Source of the DNA: Turritopsis dohrnii
Lineage: Eukaryota > Cnidaria > Hydrozoa > Anthoathecata > Oceaniidae
Direction of reading: 5' to 3'
NCBI GenBank assembly: GCA_027922465.2
Contig: BQMF02000017.1
Span: forward strand, 1,054,001-1,118,000
Length of the DNA stretch: 64,000 bases
The notes beneath the pieces were generated by a model. It was not told the DNA's origin. It searched no databases and was given only the letters and a program-made list of their open reading frames with translations. Made by a program: the position numbers and the translations under genes. Below, in pieces: positions 4,439-61,905 of the stretch. Each line of letters starts with the position of its first letter. Position 1 is the first letter of the stretch.

Positions 4439-4451
4439 ACAAATTTTTACT

Positions 4452-8428: not shown

Positions 8429-8429
8429 A

Positions 8430-18771: not shown

Positions 18772-20330
18772 TCACAAATTCCCCTTGAATGTATTCCACA
18801 ATTCCAGAGGATTGGAAGGCTCACAGTGAGTCAAAATAGTGACAAACAGTTGTCTAAGCTTTCGGGGCATTTGAAATGTTGAAGCCTCTTCCAATGTATT
18901 GTGCCACTCTGCGTCATCTTGCAGAAGATGTCTGGCAATACATGCTTCTCGGAATGTGTCGTAAACCACTCCATCGTAAGTACGCAAATCCTCGAAAGAC
19001 GTAGCACCTGCAACATGCAACAACAAAACTCGTAGGAAAAAACGTTCTCCTTCTGACGGTCGAGCATTGTATAACCGAGCGACTATAGGCTTAAATGTTC
19101 TTTTTCGTTTCTTCCATTTTTTCTCTTTGCCATGGAAGACATAATGATGCGGAATATTTGAGTAAAGATACTGCCGAGCATCAGGATCTTCTACATTCAG
19201 CTTAAACCATGCTGTAAGGTGACTATCATTCAATGCCCCTTCAGCAGCTGCCTCCTCTTCACCAGCTCTAAAATAAACTTGATGACGATCAGGTAAATGA
19301 ACAGCTAATCTCTTAATAGTATGTGATTTTTCATGCATGGAAAATTCGAAAATTCTCCATAACGCTTCAGGTGCACTGACATATCGAGCGTCCAGATACG
19401 TTTTTATTTCGTCATGTTCCAAACGTTTATTAATCTCCACATTAGCACGATCATGTCCCTTGTAAACATATTTAAAAAGATATTTCACGCTCCTGATCGT
19501 GGTACATGCTTCCAAATTTATGTGAGCATTGTACTTCTTGGACAACCACGGACAGTATGGAACTACCCATTGATTATCTAAGTCCACATTTCTTACCCTC
19601 ACTGTACGACCATTGTTACGTCTGCGATAGAGCGGATACCCATTTGCATTCATTTGGGTTGCTTCACAAAATCGCTTTGGAAAATCCTTGGTGCAGTTGC
19701 CATCATCATACATGACTTGATGATATTATGAAGTTCTGGTTCCTGTTCAGGATCTGGTATTTCAGCAGAAATTAAGCTGTCAATGTCATCAGCATTACGC
19801 AGTTTGTCCTCTTGTGCTAAATGGATAAGAATATGAGCATGAGGTAAAGAACGTTTCTAAAATTCAATAACATACAAATGAGAAATGGCTTTTCCCAAAA
19901 CACCATTTTTATTTATATCTTCCAAAAGTGCTTTTAATTTCAAATTGAAAACACGTGTAATCAGGTCCGGACGATAATGTGCAGGCTCATTATCTAAGTT
20001 TTCCGTGATCTCCTACCATTTCGGATTGCACGTAAATGTGCAAAACAGATCTGGCTTTCCCATTTTAGTTACCATAACCATAGCATCTTGATAATTCTGT
20101 TGCATGGTCCGAGGACCACCCTGAAAAGAAGACGGAAGAATCACCGGTCTGCCTGCATGGAGGCCACGATTTTCTGCAACATTTTCAAGATAATCAATGA
20201 GCCCTTGATATTGCTCAACACGGAAATTGCGCTGGTTTTGACGAATATAATTAAGACGGTCAGATTCAACTTTGCAGTAACAATCTACAGCATATTGTTG
20301 AAGTAATCTTTTACCTTTTAATATGGGGCT
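18772..20330 (-). pseudogene. Helitron Rep (HUH endonuclease) domain
   Basis: The nuclease motif LPHAHILIHL (HUH at 19833-19841) is intact, and downstream VKYLFKYVYKG holds the paired catalytic tyrosines. Two in-frame TAG codons interrupt it: at 20013-20015 after CNPKW, and at 19857-19859 in VIEF-stop-KRSLPH. Family members usually have Gln at both positions, so each could be a single C-to-T change. A further frame change near 19715 joins the Rep core to the MYDDGNCTKDFPK segment, and one near 20325 joins the segment upstream. In active Helitrons Rep nicks and joins single strands. Confidence 0.8.
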
Positions 20331-21337
20331 AAAGCATCTCTAAATGCAAACCTATAAGTATAATATTGCAGCATAGTTGTACGACGTTGCTGGCCTGCTG
20401 CATATTCTGCTACATGAGGGATGTCGGAACTCCAACCCAACTCTCCTCTTGGAAAAAATACAGGATACACCATCGGATCGAGAATAGGCGAATGCACAGG
20501 CAAATCCTGCAATGGTCTATCTCGAGGATAAACAACGATGTCTCGAGCCAATGGTGGTGCACCATCTTCACCAACAAAAACAGCAGCTACTTCATCATGG
20601 TGAGGTAGATTGTATCGACGCCGGTCACCACCACTTCTCAAATGCATTCTGACCTGCAAAACAATAGCAAAGATCTGTACATATCACTTCAAAGATTTTT
20701 AATTATTAATTTTCATCATATTTTCCATTTACCTCAGATGGGCGACGATTTTGTTCATTTGCAAGTTGAAATTCCTCAGCTTCTAACTCACCCATGTGTT
20801 TGTAAGCAGCTGCATATGGACTCTCCCTTAAAATGATGTCTTGCAAAGTTTGCATGACTTCGGGATAACATCCTTGATTTTCTGGTCTTGCCATTCTCTC
20901 ATTGAATGCATCCATACCGTCGTAGATATATAATTGACCAAAGGAAGGAAGAATACCGGGTGGCGGGTGCAAATTACCTGTTCGGTGACATACCTGGCCA
21001 TTAATACGAAAAACTGGTGGACCACGACCTTGTGGCACAACCAATTTTGCACCCATCGAAGCAAAAGCAACCGAACTATTGAACTTTCGAATATTTTCTT
21101 GAAAGTTTTTTGATTGATTAGAATCACCTACTAAAAGCTCTTTAAGATCATTAGGATATTAAATGTTATCTAAATGAACTTTACCATTGTGACAGCATTT
21201 AAAATTGGTCTCATCAACGAACATCTTGGCACCACAAAACTGACAGACCTTGTCCATGGCACCAAGATAGTGTAGCTCAGGCATTTGGCCTTGTCGAGCA
21301 GCAAGATGCAAGGGGGGATTAGCATCATTCATTCTCA
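20318..21337 (-). pseudogene. Helitron N-terminal region with a small intron
   Basis: A plausible start is MNDANPPLHLAARQGQ at 21337. A zinc-binding stretch VCQFCGAK...FKCCHNGK follows near 21200-21260. An in-frame TAA lies at 21159-21161. At 20654-20732 there is a 79-bp intron with GTAAAT donor and TTTTGCAG acceptor: it joins RRPSE to VRMHLRSGGDRRRYN in frame, which is the usual Helitron sequence here. The region with GEDGAPPLARDIVVYPR and DPMVYPVFFPRGELGW is typical of the segment before Rep. The open frame 21325-21618 just upstream is one frame off and may be a lost N-terminal part. Confidence 0.7.
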
Positions 21338-21618: not shown

Positions 21619-22439
21619 AACACAGAAACACTAACAATAGATAGTAGAAAGAAATAGCCACCCCAGTGAATTAATGCACAGAACATGGTGGAAGCGAAAA
21701 CAAACCTTTCTTTATACAAAAATAACAGACACTGAAGGGGCAACAGATAGCTAGACAACCTAGGAGAAAGTGAAAACAATTGACGTGTAACACGTAAATG
21801 ACAGACAGAATTACAGATGTAATTTAAGTGACAAACCTTTCTTTCTACTCTGTCTTCTTTCTACTTTCTGCTCTCTCTCTCTACTACACAGCAAGGGATA
21901 AATCAACCTGAATAAATGCAGATTTTAAAGTTAGGTACTTTTCGGTTTGCTTGGAAAAACCTCCGTGGAGTTTGCCATCTTAAAAATAATAAACACAATG
22001 TTACCTCGTTACGTAATTCTTTCGCTTTCGATAAACTGACTTCAATAACTGGTAAACTTGATAACTATAAACTTGATTGATAACTTAATTGATAAATTAT
22101 TGTACAGACAATTGCGATTGTCTATTATTGTCTATTATTGTCTATTATTGTCTATTATTATTATTGTCTATTAGTATTGCTTTTTTTTCTGGAGCGTAAC
22201 CGCACTGAATAAAAAACTTAATTTGTTTACTTTTTCTAACGAATTGGTTGCTTTGGTTTTTCCGATTTCAACAACCAATAAAAACGGCGAAATGGCGATC
22301 ACGTGTCAAAACAAATAATGAAAAATAGGCATTTTGAGGGTTTCTTCAATGGTCGGACTGCCGCTATATGACCACGATTAAGAAGATTTTGACCATTAAA
22401 AAAACAAAAACAAAACACTCTCTAAGTTAAATGTGTTGC
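21619..22439. other. No gene; short decamer microsatellite
   Basis: A ttgtctatta-type decamer is repeated about five times around 22115-22165. No protein-coding or RNA gene is seen. Confidence 0.5.
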
Positions 22440-23437
22440 ACACCACGGAATTGTAAGTGGAAAGTGTATCCATGTTGTAGAGCTCCAAAAACTAAGCAAA
22501 AAAATGTATGGGATCGTTTCGCTACGATTAACCGTTGCAGAGATATCGTCCTTCAAAGATTTTAATGACGTCATATCCGCAGTACAAAATACAATTTAGG
22601 CCCAAATGTTGTGTCACCCCGTCACCCGTATCGCGGACCCCAAAAAACGTCAGTTATCCCTATTGGTTCTCGAGATATTTTCCCCAAACGTCGCGTTCGA
22701 TTGGGGATGCAATGCAATGATCCCCCCGTGATATAATAAAAATAACTGACGTCACACCGCGTGCTATTATACTAATCGTCAACTATCAATGGTCTAACGA
22801 AAAAATGACCACGATTAAGAAGATTTTGACCATTAAAAAAGCAAAAACACAACACTCTCTAAGTTAAATGTGTTACACTCTATTGCGATTTAGTATAAGT
22901 AGACTAGTATCTCGTGTAAAAGTTTTTTACGACTTTAATTTCGAAAAGAATCTGCAGAAATACGACGCGTTCCCGTGTGTGTACCCGGTGACGAAAATTT
23001 TAATTACCGAATTAGAAATGGAAAGTGTACCCATGCTGTAGAGCTTGAAAAACTGAGCAAAAAAATGTATGGGATCGTTTCGCTACGACCAACCGTTGCG
23101 GAGATATCGTTGATCAAAGGTTTTGATGACGTCATATCCGCAGTACCAAATTAAATTTAGGCCCAAATGTTGCGTCACCCCATCACCCGTGCCACCAACC
23201 CTAAAAAACGTCAGTTATCACAATTGGTTACCGAGATAATTCCCCAAAAACGTCGCGTTCGATTGGGGTTGCAATGCAATGATTCCCCCGTGATGCGATA
23301 AAAATAACTGACGTCACGCCGCGTGCTATTATACTAATCGTCAATTGTCAATGGTCTAACGAAAAAATGACCACGATTAAGAAGATTTTGACCGTAAATT
23401 TTAAAACAACACAACACTCACTAAGTCGACGCTCCAT
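22440..23437 (+). repeat. R560 satellite, array A (first part)
   Basis: Nearly two units of the R560 repeat. Landmarks are gttgtagagct, atgtatgggatcgtttcgct, gatgacgtcat, acgtcagttatc, aacgtcgcgttcgattgggg and ctgacgtcac. The array is interrupted by a retroelement from 23438 and resumes at 24508. Confidence 0.8.
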
Positions 23438-32130: not shown

Positions 32131-34281
32131 GAAAATCAAAAAAAGTGTTCTCGCATTCTACGTGGTTTTACGACAAAAAGGGAAAAAATAAGAAGGATTT
32201 GACCGTGAAAAAAAAACAAATATAGTCACTCTCTAAAATAAAAGTGGTATGCACAACGCGAATTAGTATATATAGATAGTCTTATAGTATCTCGCGTAAA
32301 AGTTTTTTACGACTTTAATTTCGAAAAGTTTTTGATGACGTCAGAGCCGCAGTACCAAATAAAATTTAGGTTCACATGTTGCGTCACCCCATCATCATCA
32401 TCAATCGAACTTAACTTGCAATGCAATGAATCCCCCCGTGATAAGGTAAAAAAAACTGACGTCACGCCGCGTGCTATTATACCAATCGTCAATTATCAAT
32501 GGTCTAACGAAAAAATGACCACGATTAAGAAGATTTTGACCATTAAAAAGCAAAAAAACAAACACTCTCTAAATTAAAAGTGGGATGCACACACGCGGAT
32601 TAGTATAAGTAGACTAGTATCCCGGTTAAAAACTTTTTACCGAACTTAACTTCAAAAATATTAGGTCAAATCCACCATTCCCGTGTATGTACCCCGTAAC
32701 GAAAAAATCAATCATGGAATCGCAACTCAAAAGTGTACCCATGTTGTAGAGCTTGTAAAACTGAGCAAAAAAATGTATGGGATTGTTTCGCTACGACCAA
32801 CCGTTGCAGAGATATCATCGGTGAAAGATTGTGATGACGTCATAGCCGCAGTACCAAATAAAATTTAAGACCAAATGTTGCATCACTCCATTACCCGTTT
32901 CACCGACCCTAAAAAACGTCAGTTATCCCTATTGGTTCTCGAAATATTTCCCCAAAAACGTCGCGTTCGATTGGGGATGCAATGCAATAATTCCCGTGAT
33001 CATAAAAATAACTGACGTCAAATGATGCCACGTGCTATTATACTAATCGTGAATGTGTCTTGCGTGGTCGAACTGCCGCTATATGACCACGATTAAGAAG
33101 ATTTTGACCATTAAAAAAGCAAAAACAAAACACTCTCTAAGTTAAATGCGTTACACACGCACGCGGATTAGTATAAGTAGACTAGTAACTCACGTAAAAG
33201 TTTTTTACGGCTTTATTTTCGAAATGGATGTGCAAGAATCCCGCGCTCTCGTGTGCAACCCCTGTGACGAAAAATTAAACCACGCAATTGTAAGTGGAAA
33301 GTGTATTCATGCTGTAGAGCTCAAAAAACTGAGCAAAAATGTATGGGATAGTTTCGCTACGACCAACCGTTGCAGAGATATCGTCGATCAAAGATTTTGA
33401 TGACGTCATAGCCGCAGTACCAAATAAAATTTAGGACCCAATGTTGTGTCACTCAATCACCCGTATCGCAGACCCTAAAAAACGTCAGTTATCCCTATTG
33501 GTTTTCGAGATATTTCCCCAAAAACGTCGCGTTCGATTGGGGATGCAATGTAATGGTTCCCCCGTGATGCGATAAAAATAACTGACGTCACGCCGCATGC
33601 TATTATACTAATCCTCGATCATCAATGGTCTAACGAAAAAATGACCACGATTAAGAAGATTTTGACCATAAATTTGAAAAAAAACAACACTCTCTAAGTT
33701 AAATGTGTTACACACTACGCGGATTAGTATAATAAGATAGTATCTCGCGTAAAATTTTTTACGGCTTTAATTTCGAAACGGATGTGCAAGAATCCTGCGT
33801 TCCTGTGTGAGAACCCCGTGACGAAAATTTTAATTACGGATTCGGGACTGGAAAGTGTACTGATGTTGTAGAGCATGAAAAACTGAGCAAAATTGTATGA
33901 GATCGTTTCGCTACGACCAACCGTTTCGGAGATATCGTCGATCAAAGGTTTTGATGACGTCATAGCCGCAGTACCAAATTAAATTTAGGCCCAAATGTTG
34001 CGTCACCCCATCACCCGTATTGCGGACCCTATAAAACGTCAGTTATCCCTATTGTTTCTCGAGATATTTCCCCAAAAACGTCGCGTTCGATTAGGGTTGC
34101 AATGCAATGATTCCTCCGTGATGCGATAAAAATAACTGACGTCACGCCGCGTGCTATTATACTAATCGTCAATTATCAATGGTCTAACGAAAAAATGACC
34201 TCGATTAAGAAGATTTTGACCGTAAATTTTAAAAAAAACACAACACTCTCCAAAATAAAAGTGGTATGCACACACGCGGAT
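32131..34281 (+). repeat. R560 satellite, array C (left part)
   Basis: Successive units start with cgcggattagtataagtagac-type sequence at about 32597, 33165 and 33718, giving a period of roughly 555-570 bp. Each unit has a GTAAAA/TTTTAC palindrome near its start and two TGACGTCA sites. The array is cut at 34281 by the RAG1-like transposon and resumes at 38977. Confidence 0.85.
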
Positions 34282-34293
34282 CACGGCTGTTTC
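34282..34293 (+). repeat. Left 12-bp terminal inverted repeat
   Basis: CACGGCTGTTTC, preceded by TSD copy GGAT (34278-34281). It begins with CAC, as do RAG recombination signals and CMC transposon ends. Confidence 0.92.
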
Positions 34294-34941
34294 GGAAGCG
34301 AAACTTAGTTTGCGCATGCGTCACATTCGACCGTTTTTTTCTAAACGGTTTTAAAGATGGTAGAACAACATGTGGTTTAATACATTCCTAGGTACTAAGT
34401 TTGTATTTCCATTTTTGGCGAATTCTCTCGTATCACTGGATGGAAAATAGTCTGAATGATTCACCACATGTGTTCATATTCTTCGGTGATTGGAATTTAT
34501 GGCAGAGGGAGCTAGCGCGAAGCTTTACTATGGCTATGACTTTCATCATTTGTTTTTGACTAAAAATTCATATCAAGGTAATCAAGGGTGAATTTTTTAA
34601 CTTTCAAAGTTTTCTCATGGATGTGGCTGATGTTATATGATAGCTAGATGGCTAATAAAAGACATTTCCAGAAGGTATAGTGCAAACATTTTTTTTAAAC
34701 TTTTTACAACATCTGAAACTTTCTTGATTTTCATATACACAATTTTTATGAAGTTGCATGCGAAGCAAACGTTTGCTTGTTGCTGGCAGTCAAAACTGAA
34801 TAAATAATAGCTCTGATATTTACTTTTGATTTAAGTTAGCTATAATTTCAAAACATCTTCACTTATTTGTGTTGCTCACTTATGTTTGTCTGATTATTTA
34901 TTCAAACGTTTTACTGCCAAGAAATCCCTAACCCCTGAAAA

Positions 34942-37900
34942 CTATTCTTGTCGTTTTCTTTTCTTCGGTTTCGGTTTCATCACTTGCGTGTCAGGACATG
35001 AAGATAGCAGATGCTGTTTCATCGTGTACTCAAGACGTTTAACAGGATCTTTCACTCCGACATATCTGTAACAGGTAAAATATGCATATCGTTTGTTACA
35101 AACTTTAATAAAAATCTTTAATGTTTCGTGAAAGTTATGACTTGAAATATTCACCTGGCTCTCATCTGCTTAAATTGATGGTGAAGACTTTCCCCACCTT
35201 GCTCACCAAAAAACCCACAAGCTGACTTCCATTGTCTAATAAATGGAGCAACGTGGTCTTCCAAAAAATGTAATTTTGGACTGATATTGATTTTAGGCCA
35301 GTTCAGTCGCAAAAAGTTTAAAAATGAATTTATCGCAATTTCTAAACAAATGTAAAAAGTTAAATTTGCAATACTGTGATAATATTTTGTGAATTGACTA
35401 AAAATTAAAAATTATCCTCACCAAGGGAGTCAATTTCACTGGTACTTAAGTGCATGGAGCTGTTAAAAATATTGTGGCACACAGAATATTTATCAATTAA
35501 TTGTGTAAAATTATTACACATCGTCTGTGCTTTTCCAAGAATCTGTTCATCATCTGTTTGATTTTGAACAGCTACGATTATCCCACTACATATATGTGTT
35601 GTATTTTCTTTCTAAAATATACAATTTATTATACACTTCAAGTTGACATCAAGATCATCTATGAAATGAGTCCTATCATATACAATTTATCAATTCCTTA
35701 CCTTTAGCAACTTATGGACATGATTCCCAATGAAGCTTTTGCCATGGTACGCCTGTCTTTCAATATTAATTTTTTGCAAACTAACATCCAGAGACATAGC
35801 ACATGGACCGGTACCAGTGGGTAAATTCTTGCTGAGTTCATTGAGCGTATCTTCAATCTCGTTTATCTCCGATTCCAGCTCATTAATTCTGGGAATATAG
35901 TATGTGGAAACTGCATCAGGACTTCCACCAGCTATCAGGTGATATCCTAGTTCCTCTTTTAGCGACACAATCTCGCTAATTATTTTATCTCTTGTTTGCT
36001 CAAGATCTGTTCTTTTTTCAATGAAAATTGTATATTCATTGTCTGTTCTGTCAACATTTTTTTTGATTTCAGTGTAGCCATTTCAATGTCAAGCAAATGA
36101 CATTCCATTTCCAACATATTGAAGATTTTTAAATATATGCCCAATGACAGATGCAATCCCGGCACGGCAACCTTAGAAGAACAATGTATGTAAGGGGAAT
36201 TTCATATCAGTTTTATCTTCATTTTAAATAATCCTACTTAATTGATTTTTGAATTTTAACTAAATTTTACCTGATTTATCGGTATGTTGAAGAATTGTTC
36301 TTCGATGACATTAAAGTGATTTTTTGCATGTCTAATGTTTTTCCCTGCATTAACGAAAGCCTCATGGTGATATCGCAGGTTTTCAAGGGTCCAAGGCTTG
36401 GAACTTCCTCTAGCAAAAGTTGGAAATTGTATTTCCTCATGTGTTGCTAAACACCACAAACATGGATGGCGACCTGAAATTGTTATAATGCAATAGATAT
36501 TTATTCATAAGTAATAATACAGTTCAGATATTCATTGTAGATTGGATACTTATCATTAGCACCAGACATTCCATACATAGCACAAAGAAATGCGTAATCA
36601 CCATACATTAATACACGCAAGTTTTGGTTATTGAATTTTGTTTTTTGCAACATTGCAACTTGTGGCTGAAACCGTTTCAAGCAAATTCGCAGATTGCTAC
36701 TTGTATCTTTTGCCTCGAAAATCGAGAAGATGACGGTGTTATCTGGCCTGTTAGGATTTTTTACATTTACGATTTGGTAGCCCATCTTGAAACTATTGTC
36801 ACCATGATCTCCACCTATTTTGACATGGATTTCACGTTGGTCGATGAAGCTATGTTGTTCAAGAAGATGACATTTTTCTAAAAGTGCCATACGTTTGAGG
36901 CAAAGGGCAACCAAATTATAAAGATACGCCCACGGAACAAGTATCACTTCCAATTTGGTACCTTTAGTTTTGGTTAGTGGAGCTATTTCAGCATTCAACC
37001 CAGCCCCAACCCATTCTGTTGCAATTTTTCTAGTCTCCTTCTCTGACGATACTTTTACATTAAAGGTTTTCAGCCAACGAGAAATTTGACGAAACTGGTT
37101 CCAGGGAATATTGAGAGAGGACTTCATTGCGGCGACATGCTGTGGTGGGATGACAGCTTCTACTTTGAGTTTTTTCACAATATCTGCACGCTCGTTCTCA
37201 TTAAAACTTTCAATGACTGGAGCAGTTTGGGTGGAAATTGCAGCTTCACTGGGACCAGCTGTCATAGATATTAATTCTTTGGCAGTTTTCGTCCTAGATT
37301 CCACACTTTTTCTGCTTGATACATCAGAGTGCTTTGTAGGGATACGAATTGGTGTCATAGTCAGTGGCTATAAAAATTACATTATAATGATTTTTTCCAA
37401 TATGTGCATGATTAACAAATTATATTGTGATAGAATAACTGGCTTAATACTTTATATACACAAAAATTAATTTTTAGCTATTGGATGTATTTTATGTGGT
37501 GTTAGTGTTCCTCTTTATTTTTATTTGTGTAGAAGAGGATTTTTTTTTCAAAAAAAAACATGCATGTACACAGTTTCATTCACACAAAAACGGGTTTGTT
37601 TTAAATTGTTGATCCAAGTATAAGTAAGTTACCTTAGAGCCTTTTGTAGGGAGTTGTATACTGCAGTTTGGTAGCTGGGACTTCTGCATTTGTATGCCGA
37701 CAACATGAGTGACACATTCCATGACTTCTTGAGGAACTTCTTGCTGGGCATTAATGTTCAATATGTCACTAGTGGTCAGGACTGGTTTTTTGCAAATGTG
37801 ACCTTTGAACCTTGTTATAAGAAAATTTACTTTGCACTTTGAACACAATATGTTCTGCATCGCCAGGCTGTTAATCAGGACTTGTCCTGAATGAATAGAG

Positions 37901-38523
37901 TTAGTATTAGGTGGTACATAATTGTGGCAAGAGGGGCAGTTGCAATCTGTTCGTAGGTGTAATGTCAGGCAAACTCCACAGAAAGTGTGGTTGCAATTAA
38001 CGATATACAAAGGCTTTTTAATCAAATCCTTGCAAATTCCGCATATGTAAGGTTTGATATGGCTGTTAATGACAATTGAGAAATCTTCCAGGCTTAAATC
38101 AATAATATATTGTGGAGACATGGCATGTAATTCATTGATTAAGGACGGTGACCAATTCTTGTGAACTACTTTAACTTTGATCGGGCGTCCTTTTGTTCTA
38201 CCTTTACTGGGTCTCCCACCTTTGGATTTCATTACTAGTAAGCTACATGTGCTGCAGTTTTCTGTGCTGTGCTCTTTCCATTCAAATGGTGTTTGTTGGT
38301 GGATAGAGCCACGTTTTAACAGATTCAATTTTGCAAAGCAGTTATTGCAAAAGTATTTAGGGTGAGTACCTTCTTTGTCCAGAGTGAAATCTGCGTTGAA
38401 AGCCGTGCTAAGGTTGTTGATATGTTCTTTTGTAGCATACTTCACTCTGTAGCATATCATGTTTCCACAAACACGACAAAGTTTTTCTAAAGCACGATCG
38501 TGAAGGCTTATGGTGGTCGCCAT
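34942..38523 (-). CDS. RAG1-like transposase, seven exons, single frameshift
   Basis: The exons, by splice signals and phase, are 38523-37633, 37367-36563, 36473-36271, 36171-35702, 35611-35422, 35341-35155 and 35065-34942. Together they give about 956 codons. Residues 1-250 resemble the RAG1 N-terminus: CRVCGN (16-21), HPKYFCNNC (54-62), C90/C93, basic GRPSKGRTKGRP, a RING finger (CGIC...CNHTFCGVC...CPSC, 161-199) and a following CSKC...GHICKK finger. The catalytic core has GGDHG in exon 2, YGDYAFLC followed by HPCLWC across exons 2-3, and Glu in FFGEQGGESLHH in exon 6, giving the DDE triad. The zinc-type KLHFLEDH precedes that Glu. The tail is basic (KPKPKKRKRQE). Exon 4 is out of frame by one base at an A8 run. 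The exon 2 donor (G|GTGCTA) is weak and was chosen by phase. Confidence 0.88.
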
Positions 38524-38964
38524 GACAGGTAAAATGGCCAAATTTTGATGCCTAGTAACTTTTTGTAAAAAAAATGTTTGCAATGTGTAACGATGTTAAA
38601 AAAGTAGGTTAATATAATGTTATTATCTGTAATGTTCTTTTTCCTGTGGCAAAACTTCGTAAGTTTGGGAAAAGCTGCACAGAAGTGGTACGGTCTTTCA
38701 GCAGGATTCTTAGTGGCTTTCTCAAATTTGAAAATTCGCGGGTTTGTCATTGCAATCTGACCACTATGACTTTTTGTTTGGAAAAGATATGTATTGAACT
38801 CCATCATGGTGGTTTTACTTTGTTTTTATTAATTGGAAATGGGGGAATTTTTGGCCCTTAAAATCCCCACAGATGGTGGAGAAGGAATGGCAAAGAAGAC
38901 AATGTATATTTTTGTAATTGAAAATCGCGCATGCTCAGTCTGAGTTTCGCGAAACCAAGCTACT

Positions 38965-38976
38965 GAAACAGCCGTG
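38965..38976 (-). repeat. Right 12-bp terminal inverted repeat
   Basis: GAAACAGCCGTG, exact reverse complement of the left end, followed by GGAT (38977-38980). Confidence 0.92.
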
Positions 38977-41216
38977 GGATTAGTATAAGTAGACTAGTAT
39001 CCGGGTAAAAACGTTTTACCGAACTTAACTTCGAAAACATTAGGTCAAATCCACCACTCCCGTGTACGTACCCCGTGACGAAAAAATAAATCATAGAATC
39101 GCAACTCAAAAGTGTACCCATGTTGTAGAGCTCGAAAAACTGAGCAAAAAAATGTATGGGATCGTTTCGCTACGATCAACCGTTGCAGAGATATCGTCGT
39201 TGAAAGATTTTAATGACGTCATATCCGCAGTACCAAATAAAATTAAGGCCCAAATGTTGCGTCACCCCATCACCCGTATCGCGGACCCTAAAAAACGTCA
39301 GTTATCCCTATTGGTTCTCGAGATATTTCCCCAAAAACGTCGCGTTCGATTGGGGTCGCAATGCAATGGTTCCTACGTGATATGCTAAAATGAAACTGAC
39401 GTCACGACGCGTGCTATTATACTAATCGTCAATTGTCAATGGTCTAACGAAAAAATGACCACGATTAAGAAGATTTTGACCGTAAATTTAGAAAAAACAC
39501 AACACTCTCTAAAATAAAAGTGGTATGCACAACGCGGATTAGTATATACTAGTATCCCGGGTAAAAACTTTTTACCGAAATTAACTTCGAAAACATTAGG
39601 TCAAATCCACCATTCCCGTGTATGTAGCCCGTGACGAAAAAATAAATCATAGAATCGCCACTCAAAAGTGTACCCATGTTGTAGAGCTCGAAAAACTGAT
39701 CAAAAAAATGTATGGGATCGTTTCGCTACGACCAACCGTTGCGGAGATATCGCTGATCAAAAATTTCGATGACGTCATATCCGCAGTACCAAATAAAATT
39801 TAGGCCCAAATGATGTGTCACCCCATCACCCGTATCGCTGACCCCAAAAAACGTCAGTTATCCCTATTGGTTCTCGAGATATTTCCCCAAAAACGTCGCG
39901 TTCGATTGGGGCTGCAATGCAATGATTCCCCGTGATCATAAAAAAACTGACGTCAAATGATGCCACGTGCTTTTGGAATGATCGTGAAAAAAGTGTCTCT
40001 CGCATCTACGTGGTTTTACGCGCACATAAGAGGACAATGACCGTAAATTAAAACTAAATATATCACTCTCTAAAATAAAAGTGGTATGCACAATCGCGGA
40101 TTATTATAATAAGACTAGTATCCCGGGTAAAAACTTTTTACCGAACTTAACTTCGAAAAGGATGGGTCAAAATCGCCTTTCCCGTGAACAATCCCCGTGA
40201 TGAAAATTTCAATTTAGGAATTGGAAACCGAAAATGTAACCATGTTGTAGAGCTCGAAAAACTGATCAAAAAAATGTATGGGATCGTTTCGCTACGACCA
40301 ACCGTTGCGGAGATATCACTGATCAAAGATTTCGATGACGTCATATCCGCAGTACCAAATAAAATTTAGGCCCAAATGATGCGTCACCCCATCACCCGTA
40401 TCGCTGACCCCAAAAAACGTCAGTTATCCCTATTGGTTCTTGAGATATTTCCCCAAAAACGTCGCGTTCGATTGGGGATGCAATGCAATGATTCCCCGTG
40501 ATCATAAAAAACTGACGTCAAATGTTGCCACGTGCTTTTGGAATGATCGTGAAAAAAAGTGTCTCGCATCTACGTGGTTTTACGCGCACATAAGAGGACG
40601 ATGACCGTAAAAATTAAACAAATATATCACTCTCTAAAATAAAAGTGTGACACACAACGCGGATTATTATAATAAGATAGACTAGTATTTCGCGTAAAAG
40701 TTTTTTACGGTTTTAATTTCGAAACGCATGTGCAAAAATCCCCCGTTCCCGTGTGAGAACCCCGTGACGAAAATTTCAATTACGGAATCGGGACTGGAAA
40801 GTGTAACGATGTTGTAGAGCTCGAAAAACTGAGCAAAAAAATGTATGGGATCGTTTCTCTACGATCAACCGTTGCTGAGATATCGTCTATCATAGATTTT
40901 AATGACGTCATATCCGCAGTCTCAAATAAAATTTTGACCCAAATGTTGCGTCACCCCATCACCCGTATCGCTGACCCTAAAAAACGTCAGTTATCCCCAT
41001 TGGTTCTCGAGATATTTCCCCAAAAACGTCGCGTTCGATTGGGGATGCAATGCAATGGTTCCCCGTGGTCTTAAAAACATCTGACGTCAAATGCCACGTG
41101 CTATTATACTAATCGTGAATGTGTCTTGCGTGGGCGAACTGCCGCTATTATTATTATTACTAGTATCCCGGGTAAAAACTTTTTACCGAACTTAAATCAT
41201 AGAACAGCAACTGAAA
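38977..41216 (+). repeat. R560 satellite, array C (right part)
   Basis: Units begin near 38977, 39535, 40096 and 40668, then the array degrades at about 41150. Spacing is about 560 bp. Open frames of 60-108 codons such as 39062-39388 fall in the same place in each unit (MYVPRDEK... type) but carry stops in most copies. I read them as by-products of the repeat. Confidence 0.85.
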
Positions 41217-43095: not shown

Positions 43096-45528
43096 AATAG
43101 GTGATTATTATACACACAGAAAATTTATAAATTTTTTATAAGATCTTTAAATTTTTCATAATCCTTTTCAGCTCTTATCTCAGAAGGGAGACTGTTGTAT
43201 ATCAAAGCCCCTTGAAAGTAAAACGAGTTCCGTTCTGCTTCTAATTTTACTCGTGGTAGTCGTATAAGGTTTCCATTGTTTCGTGTATTTCGTCCAGTGC
43301 ATAGTTGAAAATAGTTTTTGAAATTTGAGCATACATCATTAGTTAGGCACCGATGAACATAATTTACGGCTTTCTTACGAATAATTGTGTTTGACTTGGG
43401 TATCACAAACTCATGTCCTACAATTTCCTGTGCACGTTGTTCCAAACTGGCGATCTTGTCCTTCAAGTATTCTGGGATTACACTAATCGTTACAAAGGAA
43501 CAGTACGTTAAGAAAGGGAGAATCATCGTTTTGTAGATGGTATAACTGGTTTTTGGATCTAGCATAAATCTCATTTTTCGTAGCAGATTAACACGCGATG
43601 AAGCTTTTGATATCGATTTCCTGATGTGTTCAGTTAGATTCAGGTTACTCGTTAATAGTACTCCCAGGTACTTGTAGGTATCGGTGCAGTTTATGTCAGT
43701 ATATTGATGTTGGATAATGATTGGCTGGTCATTAAGTTTATGCAGGCGGTTGTTAGTACCAAAAACCATAACTTCTGTTTTGCCTTTCTTACAATTCAGG
43801 ATAAGCTCATTCTCTTTCAACCAGTTTGCAAATATCTTGAATTCATGTGTCAAGACCTTTTCAATGTCATCAATAGACTTCGCAGAGTAGTAAAGGACAG
43901 TATCATCTGCATATTTGGTTATCCTGCATTGAGATAAAACTGTAGCCGAATCATTAAAGTGTAGAAGAAACAGGAGAGGTCCAAGAATGGACCCCTGCGG
44001 AACTCCACAGAATACTGGTTCTTGAGAGGAACTTGTCCCATCATACGAAACCTGTTGAAAGCGACCAAACAAGTAGTTGGTAATCCAGTTTTGGGGAATT
44101 CCTGTGATTCCGAATCCGGGCAGTTTCTCAATTATCGATGCATGGCTAACTGTATCAAATGCTTTGCTAAGGTCTATGTAAATGGCACCAGTTAGCATTC
44201 CTTTACCCATCGCTTTTCTAATTTCATCCACAAAATACACAGTTGCCAGCTCGGTAGAACGACATTTCCTGAAACCGAATTGAAGTGGAGATATCAAACA
44301 GTGTGATTCAATGTGATCCATAATTTGTCGGTGCACACATTTCTCTAAAATTTTGGATATGGCGGGCAGAACACTGATGGGTCTGTAGTTGTCGAATTTG
44401 TCTCTAGAGCCAGATTTAAAAACCGGAACAACTTTTGCTATTTTGAAGTCACTCGGTACTTTACCAGATTTTAGCGAGCAGTTTATAACGTGGGCCAGTG
44501 GTTTTGCTATTACAAACTTAATGTCCTTTAGGTAGGATGCTGGAATGTTATCTAAACCTACTGCACATTTTCGTTTAAGTCCCTTTAGGTAGTTCAGCAC
44601 TTCTTTATCGCTTACCATTTTGAATTCAAACTGGTGCTTACAAAATTCGATTCTTTTCGGTTTTGGTCTCCAAGCAAAGTCCGTAAAACGATATACATTT
44701 CGTTTGAGCAAACATGCGATAGTAGAAAAATATTTGCAAAAACCATTGGCGATTTCATATTTTCCACTAAGTATCTCATCATTAACTCTGAACGATTTCG
44801 GTAGATTTGTAGATTTGGGTTTCGTTGGAAAAATTCTTTTGATTATTTCCCAAAATTTAGACGGTTTATCCGAATTTTCTTTCAGTTCGGTTTTATAAAA
44901 CGATTTCTTTACTCGTTGAACTTCATTTGTCACAAAGTTCCGTTTTCTTTTGTATGCATTCCAATCACATTCCTTGTTTGATTTACGGGCGATTCGCTGG
45001 AGTTTATCTCTTTCATTCATTATGCGTTTTATGGATTCGTTTAACCATGGGCACGATCTTCCTTTCACCTTTTTCTCGATAAAAGGAGCACACTGATTGA
45101 TTGTTTCATTTAGAAAAGATTTCATTGTTGACCAAGCCACTAATGGGCAAGTTGTATTGTAAACAGAATTCCAATCTTTCTTAAGGAGATCTTTGTTAAT
45201 GTTATCTACGTTATAGTGTTTGTAATTGCGGCACTTTATTAACTTCCATTTATGCTTGTGACAATTTAGCTTCCGAACACAACCGATTAATTCATGATCA
45301 CCAATAGAGAGTGGAGTGACAATCACATCTTTAATAGTTGAAAGGTTATTTGTCAAAATAACATCAATTAGCGTCTTCGGCGAGGCTGTTATTCTCGTGG
45401 ACTCTGGTATAATTTGATCGAAACCATTTAATTTGATGATGTCTTTCAGTTCTTTATTATCTGACGCTACTAGATAATTTGCGTTCAGGTCACCCGTAAT
45501 AATTATTTCTTTTCTTTCCTTTTGAGCT
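43096..45528 (-). mobile_element. LINE (CR1/L2-like), 5'-truncated
   Basis: The coding region starts inside the endonuclease at the 5' edge. GTTACT occurs at both edges (43090-43095 and 45529-45534), a possible 6-bp duplication. The flanks join as family C sequence (compare 27585-27640), which supports the boundaries. Confidence 0.75.
43125..45527 (-). CDS. LINE endonuclease (C-terminal part) and reverse transcriptase
   Basis: 801 codons, uninterrupted to the stop. The first 60 residues are the end of an AP-type endonuclease: ITGDLNANYL (Asp-x-Asn), STRIT...TLIDVILTN (the Ser...Asp motif) and IGDHELIG (catalytic His). The reverse transcriptase has VVPVFKSGSRDKFDNYRPIS, IYIDLSKAFDTVSH (first Asp), GVPQGSILGPLLFLL and KYADDTVLYY (YADD). 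The thumb and C-terminal region follow. The domain order and motifs fit the CR1/L2/Jockey group; I lean to CR1/L2 without a tree. The N-terminal two thirds of the endonuclease and any ORF1 are missing, so the copy is defective although the frame is clean. Confidence 0.88.
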   Translation of the reverse strand, partial: AQKERKEIIITGDLNANYLVASDNKELKDIIKLNGFDQIIPESTRITASPKTLIDVILTNNLSTIKDVIVTPLSIGDHELIGCVRKLNCHKHKWKLIKCRNYKHYNVDNINKDLLKKDWNSVYNTTCPLVAWSTMKSFLNETINQCAPFIEKKVKGRSCPWLNESIKRIMNERDKLQRIARKSNKECDWNAYKRKRNFVTNEVQRVKKSFYKTELKENSDKPSKFWEIIKRIFPTKPKSTNLPKSFRVNDEILSGKYEIANGFCKYFSTIACLLKRNVYRFTDFAWRPKPKRIEFCKHQFEFKMVSDKEVLNYLKGLKRKCAVGLDNIPASYLKDIKFVIAKPLAHVINCSLKSGKVPSDFKIAKVVPVFKSGSRDKFDNYRPISVLPAISKILEKCVHRQIMDHIESHCLISPLQFGFRKCRSTELATVYFVDEIRKAMGKGMLTGAIYIDLSKAFDTVSHASIIEKLPGFGITGIPQNWITNYLFGRFQQVSYDGTSSSQEPVFCGVPQGSILGPLLFLLHFNDSATVLSQCRITKYADDTVLYYSAKSIDDIEKVLTHEFKIFANWLKENELILNCKKGKTEVMVFGTNNRLHKLNDQPIIIQHQYTDINCTDTYKYLGVLLTSNLNLTEHIRKSISKASSRVNLLRKMRFMLDPKTSYTIYKTMILPFLTYCSFVTISVIPEYLKDKIASLEQRAQEIVGHEFVIPKSNTIIRKKAVNYVHRCLTNDVCSNFKNYFQLCTGRNTRNNGNLIRLPRVKLEAERNSFYFQGALIYNSLPSEIRAEKDYEKFKDLIKNL

Positions 45529-45534
45529 GTTACT

Positions 45535-49377: not shown

Positions 49378-50610
49378 TTAGACAGGATTGAGATTTTGGA
49401 AAAAGTTCCACTGTTGGATGGCAAGATGACTTAAAGATCTAAGGCCGTAAAGGGTCGATTTGAAGTTAGGATAACTTAATAAACCCCTATTTCTTGCCCT
49501 GGTTCCGTATAATTGATTAATTTTTGAGAATTGGAAAGTATTAAGGGTGTCTAGAGGTAAACAAGAGTTCATGTTTTGGTTCACAAATTGTATGTTAAGG
49601 ACTTTGACAAGATCAAAAACATTTAGGATTTTTAGTTCGGAAAAAATCGGAGCGCTAGGTGTACGGTTATTAGAGAATGTCATGATTCTTATAGCAAACT
49701 TTTGAAGAACCAGTATCCGGAGTGTGGTTTGAGTATCACAAAGCCCCCAAAGCTGACAAGCGTAACGAAGATGAGAGTCAAAAAGAGAATGGTAAATTCC
49801 AACTAGAGCTTTTTTTGGAATAAAATGGCGAATTTTCGATAGTGCCCCATTAGCCCTTTGCAGTTTAAGACACAATTCGGAAACATGAGTTTTCCATTGA
49901 AGATGTTCTTCTAAATAAACACCTAAATATTTCACACTAGTGCTTGGGTAAATACGCTTTCCAAAAACTTTAAGAACAGGTATGAAAGGCAAAGATTTAG
50001 TTTTTGATCTGAAAATTAGAAATTCTGTTTTTTCAGCATTTAGAGCAATTTTATTGGCATATAGCCAGCTGCTCAGGAAATTAAGGTCAAGATTGACTCT
50101 CCTACATAGGCGTTCTAATGAGTTTGAAAAGTATAACAGGTGAGTGTCGTCCGCGAAGTGGTAAGTTTCAGATGACACAATTGCTGTGTTAAGGTCATTG
50201 ATATACAACAAGAATAACAGAGGCCCCAAAACTGAGCCTTGAGGGACACCATGTTTAACCAATTTGAGCTTAGACTACCAACAGCTACGTATTGAAGACG
50301 AGATGAAAGATAAGATCTAAACCATTGGTTAACAACTCCTCTTAATCCATAGTGCTCAAGCTTCGAGAGGAGAATAGAATGATCAACGGTATCAAATGCT
50401 TTTTGCAGATCGACAAACACACCACAGGGAAACTCACCTTTATCTAAACAACGTCTTATTCGCTCAACAATATTAAGTAATGTGTGAATGGTAGAATGAG
50501 ATTTCCGAAAGCCAAACTGCTTTTGGTAGATAATGTTATGAATATTAACAAAATTTACTACCCTATTACCCTACATTAGTTTTTCAAAAAGTTTTTCAAT
50601 ATTGGATAAT
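49378..50610 (-). pseudogene. LINE reverse transcriptase fragment
   Basis: It starts inside RT motif 2 (SLLSNIEKLFEKLM), followed directly by an in-frame TAG near 50574. RT motifs then follow: QKQFGFRKSHST, VFVDLQKAFDTVDH (first Asp), a 1-nt frameshift near 50262, GVPQGSVLGPLLFLLYIND and HFADDTHLLYF (FADD active site). The C-terminal region follows to 49378. It is a different lineage from the LINE at 43125-45527, and its FADD catalytic box replaces YADD. Truncation, stop and frameshift make it inactive. Confidence 0.85.
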
Positions 50611-50877: not shown

Positions 50878-51243
50878 ATAAAAGTTAGCAATGTTAGGAG
50901 TAATAAAAAAAGAGGAAAAACTTTCTTGTGATATCTTTTTTATCTAAAGTACGTCGTTCTAGTTTCTGTCATGATGAAAATTAAAGAAACTAGAGATTAT
51001 ATTGCAGATGTATATGTCATTCTATCAGATTTTATTGCCAACTTTTAGAATTTATTGCTTTTGTCATTGTGTTCCAATCGTGCCATAGGACTCTTATTGA
51101 GCATTTTGAAATTATTGAAAAGAGAGAAATCGTAAACTTGATATAAAGATATCCCCAAAGTGAGTTTTAATTCATATTGTTATTAATATTTTGCGACATT
51201 ACTGAAGAAATATGAATAAGAAATAAGACTGCATTGTAAAGAA
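50878..51243 (+). other. Upstream region of the MFSD6-like exon
   Basis: AT-rich, probably promoter or 5' UTR of the host gene starting at 51244, but no TATA box or splice acceptor is convincing. Confidence 0.4.
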
Positions 51244-52390
51244 ATGATATATGTGAGCTGGTTTGCAAGAACTTTAACTGCATGTACCCTTTTTTATGGA
51301 ATTCATAAGAATGACTTGAGCAGACCTATTGCCATGTTTGACTCTACAACCGTAGTATCACCTATTCTTTCGCCCATCACTAATCTAGCAACGAACGACA
51401 AGCCCGATGTACTACTATATATCAATAAAGATTACAACACAATAAACTACAATGGGACGGGAAGTCCAATCAACGATGAGAGTAGCTTCCAGCAGTATGA
51501 CGGAAAATTAAATGAAAGTAGTGAGTACAACGAAACAGATTCTCATTCCAGAGATGGACCAAACATGAAGAAGGTAATAATTAACACAGACCTCTTAATT
51601 TACAAAGCATTTTATTTCATGTTTTATGGGGCAGTCGGATCATTGTTTCCATATTTAGTCGTATTCTACAAACAGCTGTATCTTTCTGCACAACAAGTTG
51701 GCTTTTTGATAGGAATTCGTCCATTTATTCAAATGGTTGCTGTTCCATTATGGGGAGCTTTAGCTGATACGTACAATGTTAAAAAATGGATTTTATTGCT
51801 TGCAATTGGTGCATGGCTTGGAGCTAATTATAGTCTGTGTATAGTTCGAGTACCACCAGAAAATGCGTGTAATTCAAGTCTAAGTTTCATTCAGTTTCCA
51901 AAAGTTGGCAAATTAGTTGAACCTAACAAGTTTGATATGAATATAACTACGGATTTTGGAAAAGTTGAAGGTACAGGAAGCAGAATGAATTTCCGAAAGC
52001 GTAGACAAAAGTCTACAATGACAAACGATGCTACTCGTTATTTTAAACGTCGTTCGACAATATCAGGCAATCGGTCCTTGAGAAAACTCATATCGCCTTA
52101 TAATATTCACACAGTTAGTAACTTAATCAGATCAAAAAGGTATAAAAAGTCTGTCAATAAATCTGAATTAAGTTCTACACTAAGAAACGAAATAAATATA
52201 AATAAATATAGCAATTATAGGCGATTGTCTCGTAGAAATAATCACTTTCCCCATAATGGAGAATTATCGAGTTGGCTCAATAAATCCATATACAATACTG
52301 GGACAACATTGCAAAGAATTTTCGCAGCTGATGAATTGGAAGAAGAATTTGATTCGTTAAATATAGATGATGACTATCCATGGCCATTAG
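51244..52390 (+). CDS. MFSD6: MFSD6-like transporter, first coding exon (partial gene)
   Basis: This is the one credible host gene. The frame starts at the ATG at 51244 and runs 382 codons to a GTAAGC donor after 52390 (phase 1). Residues 1-115 are a polar, Asn/Ser-rich start. Three membrane segments follow: about 117-141 (KAFYFMFYGAVGSLFPYLVV), 151-173 (GFLIGIRPFIQMVAVPLWGA) and 181-201 (WILLLAIGAWLGANYSLCIV). The GIRPF...PLWGALAD motif between them is the mark of the MFSD6 branch of major facilitators. A long basic hydrophilic stretch follows (residues 205-382), as in the large loop of this family. The later exons are not found in the remaining 11.6 kb, so the next intron is long or the gene is broken. 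The substrate is unknown. Confidence 0.8.
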
Positions 52391-52674
52391 GTAAGCTCAT
52401 GAATAACTTTATTCTTTATTGAACTTTGTATCTGATTCATGAGAAACATGGTAAACATGATCATTCGCAACTATGGAGAAACTCAAGAATTTACAAGTTA
52501 TTTCTTCTGTTTATTTACTATTATTCTAGTTTTACTTCTAATGTCATAAAACACATTATTACACTATATATACAACATATTGGCAACAAGGACTAATTTG
52601 CTGAGATTTCCAGGAAATATTTAAAAATGTACACAGATTTTTGAACATCGTGGAAATTCCCCAGTATTAGTAAC
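52391..52674 (+). other. Start of the intron after the MFSD6-like exon
   Basis: Begins GTAAGC at 52391. AT-rich with no other feature recognised. Confidence 0.45.
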
Positions 52675-53221
52675 TACTAGTATCCCGGGTAAACCCTTTC
52701 TACCGAACTTAACTTCGAAAACATTAGGTCAAATCCACCATTCCGGTGTACGTAGCCCGTGACGAAAATTTCAATTACGGAATCGCGACTGAAAAATGTA
52801 ACAATGTTGTAGAGCTTGAAAAACTGAGCAAAAAAATGTATGGGATCATTTTGCTACGACCAACCGTTGGAGAGATATCGTCGATCAAAGATTTTAATGA
52901 CGTCGTATCCGCAGTACCAAATAAAATTTAGGCCCAAATGTTGCGTCACCCCGTCACCCGTATCGCGAACCCTAAAAAACGTCAGTTATCCCTATTGGTT
53001 CTCGAGATATTTCCCCAAAATCGTCGCGTTCGATTGGGTATGCAATGTAATGATTCCCTGTGATTATAAAAAAATCTGACGTCAAATGATGCCACGTGCT
53101 TTTAGAATAATCGTGAAAAAAGTGTCTCTCGCCTCTACGTGGTTTTACGCGCACATAAGAGGACGATGACCGTAAATTAAAACTAAATATATCACTCTCT
53201 AAAATAAAAGTGGGATGCACA
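52675..53221 (+). repeat. R560 satellite unit, copy D
   Basis: A single nearly complete unit from actagtatcccgggtaaac to cactctctaaaataaaagtgggatgcac, about 545 bp. It lies in the intron of the MFSD6-like gene. Confidence 0.8.
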
Positions 53222-55010
53222 CCGCTCGCCACCCATGTTCAGCTTGCGTTGTGTCGCAGAATTTAACTTGTGTAGAAGGTTTTTACAGGCATTAATTTTT
53301 TAATTCATTTCTTACATTCAGAAAATTTAAAACAGAAACAAATAGCAATATGGCTATCAATATATATATTGAAGAGAAGTAACTTTAATGTAAACAAGAG
53401 CCATATGGCACAAAACGGTAGCAGCATTTCAACTCGCAATGTACAAAACGAAATAGATTCTAAATTAATTAGTCTGAAAGCCCCATGAAGCTTTGTCGAC
53501 CTTTGTTTATCTCTTAGGCATAAATTAAGGCAATTTTCATTTGAAAAAGTGTAAACAGGGCTTAAGTAAAACCACCAGAAAACTATTTGATACAAACAAA
53601 AGAAATATGCACAATACGCGAAACTACGTTTTTTTTTATATCAGATTTTTTTTATAAAAAGAAAGCTGTAAGACCGAAAAGAGAAAAAAAACAAACGTCT
53701 TCTAAAAATATAAGAAACAAAGTAAAACCGTTTCAAACTTTAATCCAAGACATTTTTGTAGACAAGCAAACAAAATATACACGCACAAAATATAAAAAAA
53801 ATGTAAAAATGCTTTTAAAAAGTTCGATGAATTTCGATAAATCTTTGTAACTGCAAGAAGAAGAGAGCTTCGAACTTCGAAGCACAAGACGTTACCAAAA
53901 ACAAAGCTTAAGTTTATTTTAACCGTGTTTCAAATTAGGTGCAACTAAAGTTCCCCACCGTGTTTTTAATAGGAAAATGTTTATTGGAAATGGCGAATCT
54001 ATGGTAAAATACTAAAAGAACGTATAAAGAATGTTTTGATAGTTATAAAGATTATATTAGCCTCCGTTCTTAAGTTGCAATTTACGCAGTTTCGAAAGCG
54101 ACATTGGTAGGCTGCACAGGCTAAACTGCCATTTCGGTCGGTAGTAGGAGGAGGAGGAGGAGGAGGAGGAGGAGTAGTCCAAGGGTGTTTTAATACGGTA
54201 TTCGCTTCGCTGCTACCGTAAAAAATGGCAATATATAACACAAAACTGTTTACCCAGACATACAAAACCAAACATTGAATAACATTACAAAAATGTTAAT
54301 TCAAAACAAATTGATACCTTCCAACTTTTTCTTTTGTTCCAAAGTTACTACTGGTCAGCAATCATTAATGAATTTTGAAATGATATATAGTCTGTTTTTC
54401 CCAAAACCATCAACATCATGATTTAAACCGTGAGTTTCATTTCTTTATGCTTTTTTATTATTGCCTAAAAGAATAATATTTCAATTGTAATACCAAAAAT
54501 AAAAAACAAAAAGAAACTAAAACTAAAAACACGAATTTACCCAGAAGATAAAAAGTAACAAATAAAAACACAATGCCAAACTTATACACCCAGGCATAGT
54601 ACGTAGGTAAACGATTATATACCATAACACAAAATAATGCATAAACTTGATAAAATATAAACTGAAGAAAAATCCATCCAATAATGCTTCTTTTTTGTAG
54701 GACAGTTTCATTGTACAGAACCCTCTCAACTTCATAATTTAACCATGTCCTTCATTTCTTTAATGGTTATATACACTTTTCTTTTTTCTGACCTAATAAA
54801 AAAAGAAAAGATTTCAGTCGAAGAACAGCTAAAATAATCACATTCATTGCAACCATATTGAAGCAAACAAAAACAAAAGACATAAAGTTGGCAGATAGAC
54901 AAAGTACCAAGCATCTGAAATTGTACAGGAAAATCTAATAAAAGGCAGACATGGTTGACGTACCCCCATTTCCACAGCCATGAGAACCATTTTTAATTGA
55001 TTTGTAAATA
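53222..55010 (-). repeat. Family D dispersed repeat, copy 5, split
   Basis: 53222-53395 matches the left end of family D (cgctcgccacccatgttcag). 54225-55010 matches the rest. Between them, 53396-54224 is an unrelated insert with distant similarity to 45790-46060 and 47540-47700. A (GGA)n tract lies at 54146-54173; the polyproline frame it creates is low complexity and not a gene. Confidence 0.5.
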
Positions 55011-61300: not shown

Positions 61301-61446
61301 AGTCAAGGTGTTGATATAATTCGTTCCCCTTAATCATTACAAAATCCAGGTCAGTTGTTTTCCAGAAAGACATTCGTTTGAATTGTGACCAACACAAACT
61401 CAACAAAGCATTGCATGCACACTGCATACCAGCACTGTCACCAAAC
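58395..61446 (-). pseudogene. Helitron protein: protease-like domain, 20-residue repeats, HUH Rep (truncated)
   Basis: Residues 1-175 form a cysteine-protease-like domain: GMQCACNAL (Gln-x-Cys) and LFDSHSRNDLG (Asp, His). The pattern resembles ubiquitin-specific peptidase family C76 seen in some transposon proteins; this is a pattern match only. About residues 230-440 hold 20-residue repeats of the KLKTMHLRYKESKGTAEHAE type. A Cys-x2-Cys pair set (VCNRCLY, CKTCHQKL) and the PRPADSNGLLLLKLKRKL region follow. The Helitron Rep starts near IPIYADKFCEEMAFPHLFPFG and has HUH in GSPHVHVFIWI. It ends before the Tyr motif. Without tyrosines and helicase it cannot transpose. Confidence 0.82.
60160..60790 (-). 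repeat. 60-bp coding tandem repeat
   Basis: About ten in-frame 60-bp units. Four consecutive ones around 60237-60476 are identical or differ by one or two bases; the outer ones are diverged. Each encodes 20 residues with alternating charged helical segments, likely a coiled or rod-like spacer. Confidence 0.9.
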
Positions 61447-61455
61447 ATAGGATTA

Positions 61456-61905
61456 TAATAATAATAATAATAATGATATATTTCACAGTATCTCCAAAAT
61501 TTTACAATTGGCTCTTCACCTGGAAATTGAGAAGATTATGTATATGCAGCGTCTAAAAAATATCGTATATTAAAAAAAATAATGGCAGAAATTAGAGAGA
61601 CAGTCGTAGTATGGGACGTGGCTAGGTGTGGATAAGGTGAAGGTAGAGTAGAACCAGATAGTCGTAAACCAAAAAGAATGTCGACTGAAGTTATGAAAAC
61701 TAGGAAATGGGACATGACTAAACCTAAGGACTAACGTAATGTAAACCGATGTGTAGGACCAAATTGAGGTTAGAACCGAATATTAGAAAAAAAAAACTGT
61801 TAATATATATAAACTTATAAATTAATTCCTCCATGGCAGTAAAGATAGAACTTGGACTCAAAAAGCAATCTAAAACCTAAAATAGGACTAGATGAAGGTA
61901 AGGAG
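61456..61905 (-). mobile_element. 450-bp insertion in Helitron ORF with 9-bp TSD
   Basis: ATAGGATTA flanks it (61447-61455 and 61906-61914). Next to the left copy is a (TAA)n tract, a simple-repeat tail on the minus strand, suggesting a SINE or truncated LINE. Dropping the insert and one duplication joins QGNP to MFGDSAG in frame. No coding region or tRNA-like head is recognised inside. Confidence 0.8.

Follow-up and report, generated by a model that had tools for sequence, protein, structure and literature searches.

Background

A transposon-borne protein resembling part of RAG1 is not without precedent: Panchin and Moroz reportedly described in 2008 an Aplysia transposon, N-RAG-TP, with a RAG1 N-terminal-like protein. 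That element is characterized in PMC8355894 as 'composed entirely' of RAG1-N-terminal-like sequence. In the Chapaev superfamily of DNA transposons, the combination of a Chapa zinc domain, a RING finger and a transposase core was published in 2015 (Kapitonov and Koonin, PMC4411706). The hallmarks of that superfamily, which we take from PMC4079192 and PMC4411706, are CAC...GTG termini with terminal inverted repeats (TIRs), a target-site duplication (TSD) of 3-4 bp, a DDE transposase with C(2)C, LH and H(4)H motifs, a core matching the Pfam model PF06918 (DUF1280), and a Chapa zinc domain followed, in two subgroups, by a RING finger; PF06918 has been equated with Chapaev transposases (Majorek et al. 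2014, PMC3985635). Here we analyze a 4,695-bp element at positions 34282-38976 of a 64,000-nucleotide stretch (hereafter the window) of contig BQMF02000017.1, from the 435.9-Mb genome assembly of the hydrozoan Turritopsis dohrnii.

With a probability of about 0.93, we assign this element to the Chapaev superfamily of cut-and-paste DNA transposons, and within it to the sub-group that keeps a RAG1-like N-terminal half in front of a DDE core of the RAG1/Transib fold; it adds a new member to the architecture of PMC4411706. A preliminary description made from the sequence of the window had recognized the domain architecture and the 4-bp TSD, both of which stand, but had overlooked that the Chapaev superfamily was already known for them, according to PMC4411706.

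Results and Discussion

Boundaries and target site

The TIRs of the element are 12 bp long, identical at 12 of 12 positions and start with CAC, as in Chapaev. The left one (CACGGCTGTTTC, 34282..34293, plus strand) lies on the 3' side of the gene and recurs as the end of sister copies; the right one (38965..38976, minus strand), on the 5' side of the gene, is its inverted match, and a third exact copy of the 12-mer is absent from the window. On the left, the flank reads ..GCGGAT directly before CAC, and on the right GTG is directly followed by GGATTA.., which gives a 4-bp TSD, GGAT, at 34278..34281 and 38977..38980. To find the empty site, both satellite flanks were joined by script, with one GGAT dropped, and compared with satellite units: a neighbouring unit (32454..32751, plus strand) is 92% identical across the junction, and a second one (39394..39686, plus strand) 94%. 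The satellite units are uninterrupted across the joined flanks, and the empty site is therefore real. Termini, TSD and empty site had all been claimed in the preliminary description, and the flanks and the two empty sites agree with it on each.

Copies in the host genome

A search of the host genome for other copies, which the same description had proposed, returned at least 67 matches, several per copy; this is a lower bound, since 36 of the 211 candidates were scored. The copies form two subfamilies with a mean identity of 81% to each other, within which identity rises to 97-99% (six aligned copies of subfamily 1) and 98.8-100% (twelve aligned copies of subfamily 2). The ends are the same throughout: CAC/TIR termini with at most one mismatch occur in all 25 copies in which both ends could be read, and 24 of these 25 carry a perfect 4-bp TSD (10/11 in subfamily 1, where L004 is the exception, and 14/14 in subfamily 2). 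TSD sequences vary between copies, and L016 and L025 occupy one common site. Four copies (L008, L009, L010 and L012) are internal-deletion derivatives in which roughly 1 kb of the core is missing (~1195-2252 in element coordinates), each with a 4-bp TSD of its own, and form a non-autonomous subfamily. The family has moved recently in the host genome.

Transposase gene

A single gene on the minus strand, whose seven exons were traced across 18 aligned copies, fills positions 34942-38523. Seven of the 18 copies (L002, L018, L019, L020, L022, L024 and L026) encode an uninterrupted protein of 960 residues; the remaining 11 do not read through. The copy in the window is among the broken ones: the frame of exon 4 (35702..36171) is disrupted within an A-run, and the splice donor after exon 2 (36552..36553) is AT, as against GT in 17/18 aligned copies. 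The term 'complete DNA transposon', used in the preliminary description, holds for both termini and the TSD but not for the gene, and the suggestion that this copy might be a fuller example of the N-RAG-TP kind is weakened for the copy itself, although its sisters are intact. Residue numbers below refer to the intact copy L018.

A RAG1-like N-terminal half

Exon 1 (37633..38523, minus strand, from ATG to donor; delimited by Pfam matches and by alignment with copies and RAG1) encodes the RAG1-like N-terminal half. In the window, this exon scores 30.7 bits, with a cut-off of 23.3, against the Pfam model RAG1_imp_bd (PF12560), a RAG1 model which, following PMC4411706, we use as the counterpart of the Chapa domain, and matches the RING model zf-C3HC4_2 (PF13923) with an E-value of 9.5e-8; the Chapaev succession of Chapa and RING is thus found above cut-off. 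The corresponding features are a zinc domain with three CxxC pairs (38245..38478), equivalent to the central non-core domain of RAG1, a C3HC4 RING finger (37927..38043) and, in the alignment to RAG1 154-373, a C2H2-like finger where RAG1 has zinc finger A (37786..37845), all on the minus strand and in this order in the protein, as are RING and zinc finger A in RAG1.

Against full-length mouse RAG1, the N-terminal 249 residues of L018 align with an E-value of 8.5e-8, collinear with RAG1 154-373; an additional, separate segment at RAG1 99-117 is insignificant on its own. By itself, the RING segment has matches in numerous further RING proteins as well, and three of these score above RAG1. The CxxC pairs at residues 16, 59 and 91 parallel, in order, the RAG1 pairs C110/113, C175/178 and C210/213, the pairs mutated in PMC3124419. 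At the level of sequence, then, the domain matches the central zinc domain of RAG1, and the RAG1 N-terminal likeness first put forward for this element passes the profile search.

PF12560 is common in the host, with at least 98 matches above cut-off, and loci L031-L060 include several Chapa + RING transposon families with differing TIRs. A pattern scan of 30 PF12560 loci called a RING in 23; among the other seven, L039 has a RING with one ligand altered, and the frames of L031 and L040 contain the start of one. In four of the closest homologs (P0001-P0004, 38-45% identical), Chapa is joined to the core, and a RING is neither listed nor visible in the alignment. These could have lost the RING module, or their gene models could be in error.

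The DDE core

The remaining exons, all on the minus strand and placed by alignment of copies and, for the motif-bearing exons 2, 3 and 6, of homologs, encode the core. Exon 2 (36554..37367) holds the first and second catalytic D (GGDHGD, MYGD) and the PF06918 match; exon 3 (36271..36473) holds CLWC, the C(2)C zinc motif; exon 4 holds the LH motif (GLHLSLG) and a long insert, helical in a homolog model; exon 5 (35422..35611) is followed by exon 6 (35155..35341), with the H(4)H zinc motif and GEQGGES, which includes the third catalytic acidic residue, and by exon 7 (34942..35065), which includes the stop codon. Across exons 2-7 of L018 the motifs succeed one another as GGDHGD, MYGD, CLWC, GLHLSLG, LHILEDH and GEQGGES, corresponding to D485, D555 (19 residues ahead of the CxxC), C574/C577, L643-H644, H882/H887 and E908. 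The RAG1 counterparts are D600, D708, C727, C730, H937 and H942; E962 of RAG1 is named in the titles of PDB entries (RAG1 E962Q) among the fold-comparison matches. Among 32 aligned proteins (L018 together with 31 out of 42 homologs), no change occurs at either D or at the H(4)H histidines, and conservation is at least 90% at C(2)C and at the final E, so that the Chapaev pattern of C(2)C, LH and H(4)H is seen both in L018 and across its homologs.

PF06918 matches the core with an E-value of 2.7e-13 (50.5 bits, cut-off 25), and exon 2 of the window alone with 7.1e-14, again as in Chapaev. A comparison of folds, based on the predicted structure of a homolog, matches the core to RAG1, as well as the RING/zinc-finger-A region. 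Several points weigh against our assignment. The RAG1 core model PF12940 is not among the matches listed to E 10, a threshold at which the HMMER filters may lose weak ones; a profile of the homologs, run against solved structures, returned no RAG-type chain at 0.01, the sole one listed being amphioxus RAG1L, at E 0.57; the structure modelled is that of a 33%-identical homolog rather than of the window copy; and the Chapaev assignment was made by published hallmarks and PF06918, not by a tree with reference Chapaev cores. There is no significant profile match to RAG1, and the predicted relation of the core to RAG1 therefore rests on fold and shared motifs. With Pfam matches, motifs and homolog fold taken together, the combination proposed from the outset is upheld: the transposon has a 4-bp TSD, and its protein joins a RAG1-type N-terminal half to a DDE core of the RAG1/Transib type. 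A solo N-terminal element was rejected, the core being present.

Two other identities were weighed. The N-terminal half matches RAG1 (E 8.5e-8) far better than does the core, with its lack of a significant match, as would be expected of a recent chimera in which a Chapaev core captured the N-terminal half of RAG1 from a RAG-like (RAGL) element of the host. We regard such an origin as very improbable: PF12560 and/or RING occur together with PF06918 in proteins of Hydra, Patiria, Ptychodera and Antedon, and the exon-1 proteins of four families of the host, A (that of the window element) to D, all have PF12560 and RING. Because the combination spans these four genera, the fusion must be old, and a recent, host-specific event is rejected in favour of an old and widespread architecture. 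An abundance of RAG1-domain and DUF1280 genes had already been reported for Hydra genomes (PMC7642931).

The second is that the element belongs to the RAGL group (ProtoRAG/TransibSU) or to Transib and kept its N-terminal half by chance, to which a RAG1-type N-terminal domain and a core with, in the homolog, the fold of RAG1 would both conform. In protostome RAGL, however, the TSD is always 5 bp long, and a length of 5 bp predominates in ProtoRAG, Transib and RAG (PMC7204232); it is 4 bp in 24/25 readable copies here. The single gene leaves about 660 and 450 bp of the 4,695, too small for a RAG2-like gene (RAG2L), although the leftover frames were not searched with profiles. In addition, the core is matched by PF06918, and PF12940 is not among the matches listed. 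On TSD length, the lack of room for RAG2, the Pfam model concerned and the absence of an N-terminal half in Transib, a RAGL or Transib identity is rejected as highly unlikely.

Lopsided ends

The spacers of RAG signals are 12 and 23. The two ends of the present element also appear to be unequal. Inward from CAC, the gene's 3' end has a block, GCGAAACTYAG, at position 17 and a box, GCATGCG, at 33; at its 5' end the same block starts at 27 and the box at 43. In the window, as located by end alignment and locus scan, the left, 'short' end carries GCGAAACTTAG at 34298..34308 (positions 17-27 from the terminus) and the box at 34314..34320, both on the plus strand, and the right, 'long' end carries GCGAAACTCAG at 38940..38950 (positions 27-37) and the box at 38928..38934, both on the minus strand.

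A scan of the fetched loci for TIR and blocks, with one mismatch permitted in each, gave 58 end hits, from which L059 (no block) and a second L026 hit were excluded. This second hit belongs to another element, at L026:5170 beside a subfamily-2 copy, with the same CACGGCTGTTTC end, a GCATGCG box at 43 and a different inner block. The positions are kept in 28/28 of the 3' ends and 12/12 of the 5' ends of family A that were long enough; where they were not, the first block still lies at 27 in 14/14 5' ends, and the 17/33 positions recur in 2/2 3' ends. The 14-bp spacer has the same length but a different sequence in subfamily 2 (A1 vs A2). For families B-D, the 5' ends were placed by the drop of homology between copies and the 3' ends came from small fetched stretches; when the window TIR was sought in the 5' flanks of other PF12560 loci, nothing useful emerged. 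In B-D, each of the five copies with both ends is flanked by a 4-bp TSD (TAAA, CTGT, AAGT, AGTT and CATT); the 3' end of D was chosen from two TIR-like hits for its fewer mismatches and its matching CATT TSD.

When the 3' and 5' ends were compared, the best inner match lay at an offset of +10 in A1 (18/22 positions; 0/1000 shuffles as good), A2 (11/12; 1/1000, over 40 bp of the 5' end) and B (20/22; 0/1000), and of +11 in C (18/22; 0/1000). The shift of 10-11 bp is seen in L018/L062, L032/L077, L042/L078 and L041/L086, and in the window between 34282-34340 and 38917-38976. In L035, a copy of B, one base of the box at the 5' end is altered. The long end is on the 5' side of the gene in every family read. 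Over the same set of families, identity of the exon-1 proteins is 24-31% for A against B, C or D, 35% for D against B or C, and 43% for B against C.

These observations suggest, with less certainty than the classification, that one end of the element is short and the other long, their inner blocks being displaced by one turn of the helix. This difference in spacing, preserved despite divergence of the spacer sequence and the protein, resembles the 12/23 design of RAG. We tentatively propose, at somewhat less than even odds, that a synaptic complex would bring together one short and one long end, by analogy with the pairing of 12- and 23-signals by RAG, and, with similar reserve, that Chapaev elements with a RAG1-like N-terminal half might follow a 12/23-like rule under which both kinds of end must pair. 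Outside V(D)J recombination, PMC8355894 knows of 12/23 asymmetry only in some Transibs, with 27/31 in ProtoRAG; we found no report of a one-helical-turn end difference in Chapaev in the literature searched, which was mainly open-access.

Some of the data tell against the asymmetry. The 3' ends were found in 2/5 tried copies of B, 2/3 of C and 1/2 of D; the inner match of D is weak (offset +11, 14/22, 30/1000 shuffles as good); and B, C and D are related to one another, hence not fully independent. The palindrome of the inner box also resembles a known animal transcription-factor site, which would allow use as a promoter. The main rival is that a host-factor site was inherited at both ends: the GCGCATGCGC-like box would be such a (promoter) site, its spacing unselected, and the lopsidedness a chance inheritance without a role in synapsis. 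The box does lie upstream of the gene in a promoter-like position, starting some 43-46 bp in at the 5' end of families A-D. It is, however, also present at the 3' end, where no gene begins (degenerate in family D), the 10-11 bp offset persists across families with exon-1 proteins 24-43% identical, and the A1 and A2 spacers differ in sequence but not in length. We give this explanation, too, a chance a little short of one half.

Genomic setting

The element sits in a diverged tandem/dispersed satellite with units of about 560 bp, as estimated from match offsets (22350-23426, 32417-34281, 38977-41125 and 52663-53222). Other frames resembling mobile elements lie at 1705-4446, 4960-5775, 6371-10435, 17332-21158, 43125-45533, 49378-50570 and 58395-61535; judged by eye from their translations, they look like reverse transcriptases, a tyrosine-recombinase retroelement and a PIF1-type helicase. 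An open reading frame at 51220-52422, a gene of host type, is MFSD6-like: the sole named protein among its 28 matches is from Hydra vulgaris and is 39% identical, which makes a cnidarian host likely, perhaps a hydrozoan one.

Proposed mechanism and significance

By analogy with RAG1 and Transib, the transposase would cut beside CAC by DDE nick-hairpin chemistry and make insertions staggered by 4 bp. As in RAG1, the RING half is likely to form dimers and may have ubiquitinating activity; less surely, synapsis would join the short to the long end. Intact, recently spread copies with the whole RAG1 layout would allow what the RING/zinc half does in transposition to be tested outside immunity. Likewise, the one-turn end difference kept in four families means that the 12/23 rule's origin could be tested in a Transib relative lacking RAG2. 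A published hypothesis depends on no systems other than RAG and some Transibs being known to have this asymmetry (PMC8355894). If pairing is asymmetric here, it either predates the RAG/Transib lineage or arose twice on one protein scaffold, and it operates without RAG2.

Comparison with known systems

By description, N-RAG-TP and the present element are both transposons that encode a RAG1 N-terminal-like protein, N-RAG-TP having the N-terminal part only (PMC8355894). Transib and HzTransib are without an N-terminal half (PMC4411706) and have a TSD of predominantly 5 bp (PMC7204232), whereas the element has that half and a TSD of 4 bp. With ProtoRAG/RAGL it has in common a RAG1-like full-length architecture, CAC ends and asymmetry of the ends (27/31 in amphioxus), but RAGL elements carry RAG2L and a 5-bp TSD, and the core described here is unmatched by the RAG1 Pfam model. 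The likeness to vertebrate RAG1 extends to the order of N-terminal domains, the RING/zinc-finger-A and core folds (in the homolog model), the catalytic and zinc residues, signals that start with CAC, and a difference of about one helical turn between the ends. Unlike vertebrate RAG1, the element has no RAG2, a TSD of 4 rather than 5 bp and no listed PF12940 match, and in its transposase LH is separated from H(4)H by a long helical insert; its inner signal is a GCATGCG-type box, not an A-rich nonamer. Set beside published Chapaev by description rather than by Repbase sequences, our families bring the one-helical-turn end difference described here. With Chapaev elements that have Chapa and RING (Kapitonov and Jurka 2007, as cited in PMC4411706 and PMC4079192), the element shares CAC..GTG ends, a 4-bp TSD, a PF06918 core, the C(2)C/LH/H(4)H motifs, Chapa and RING.

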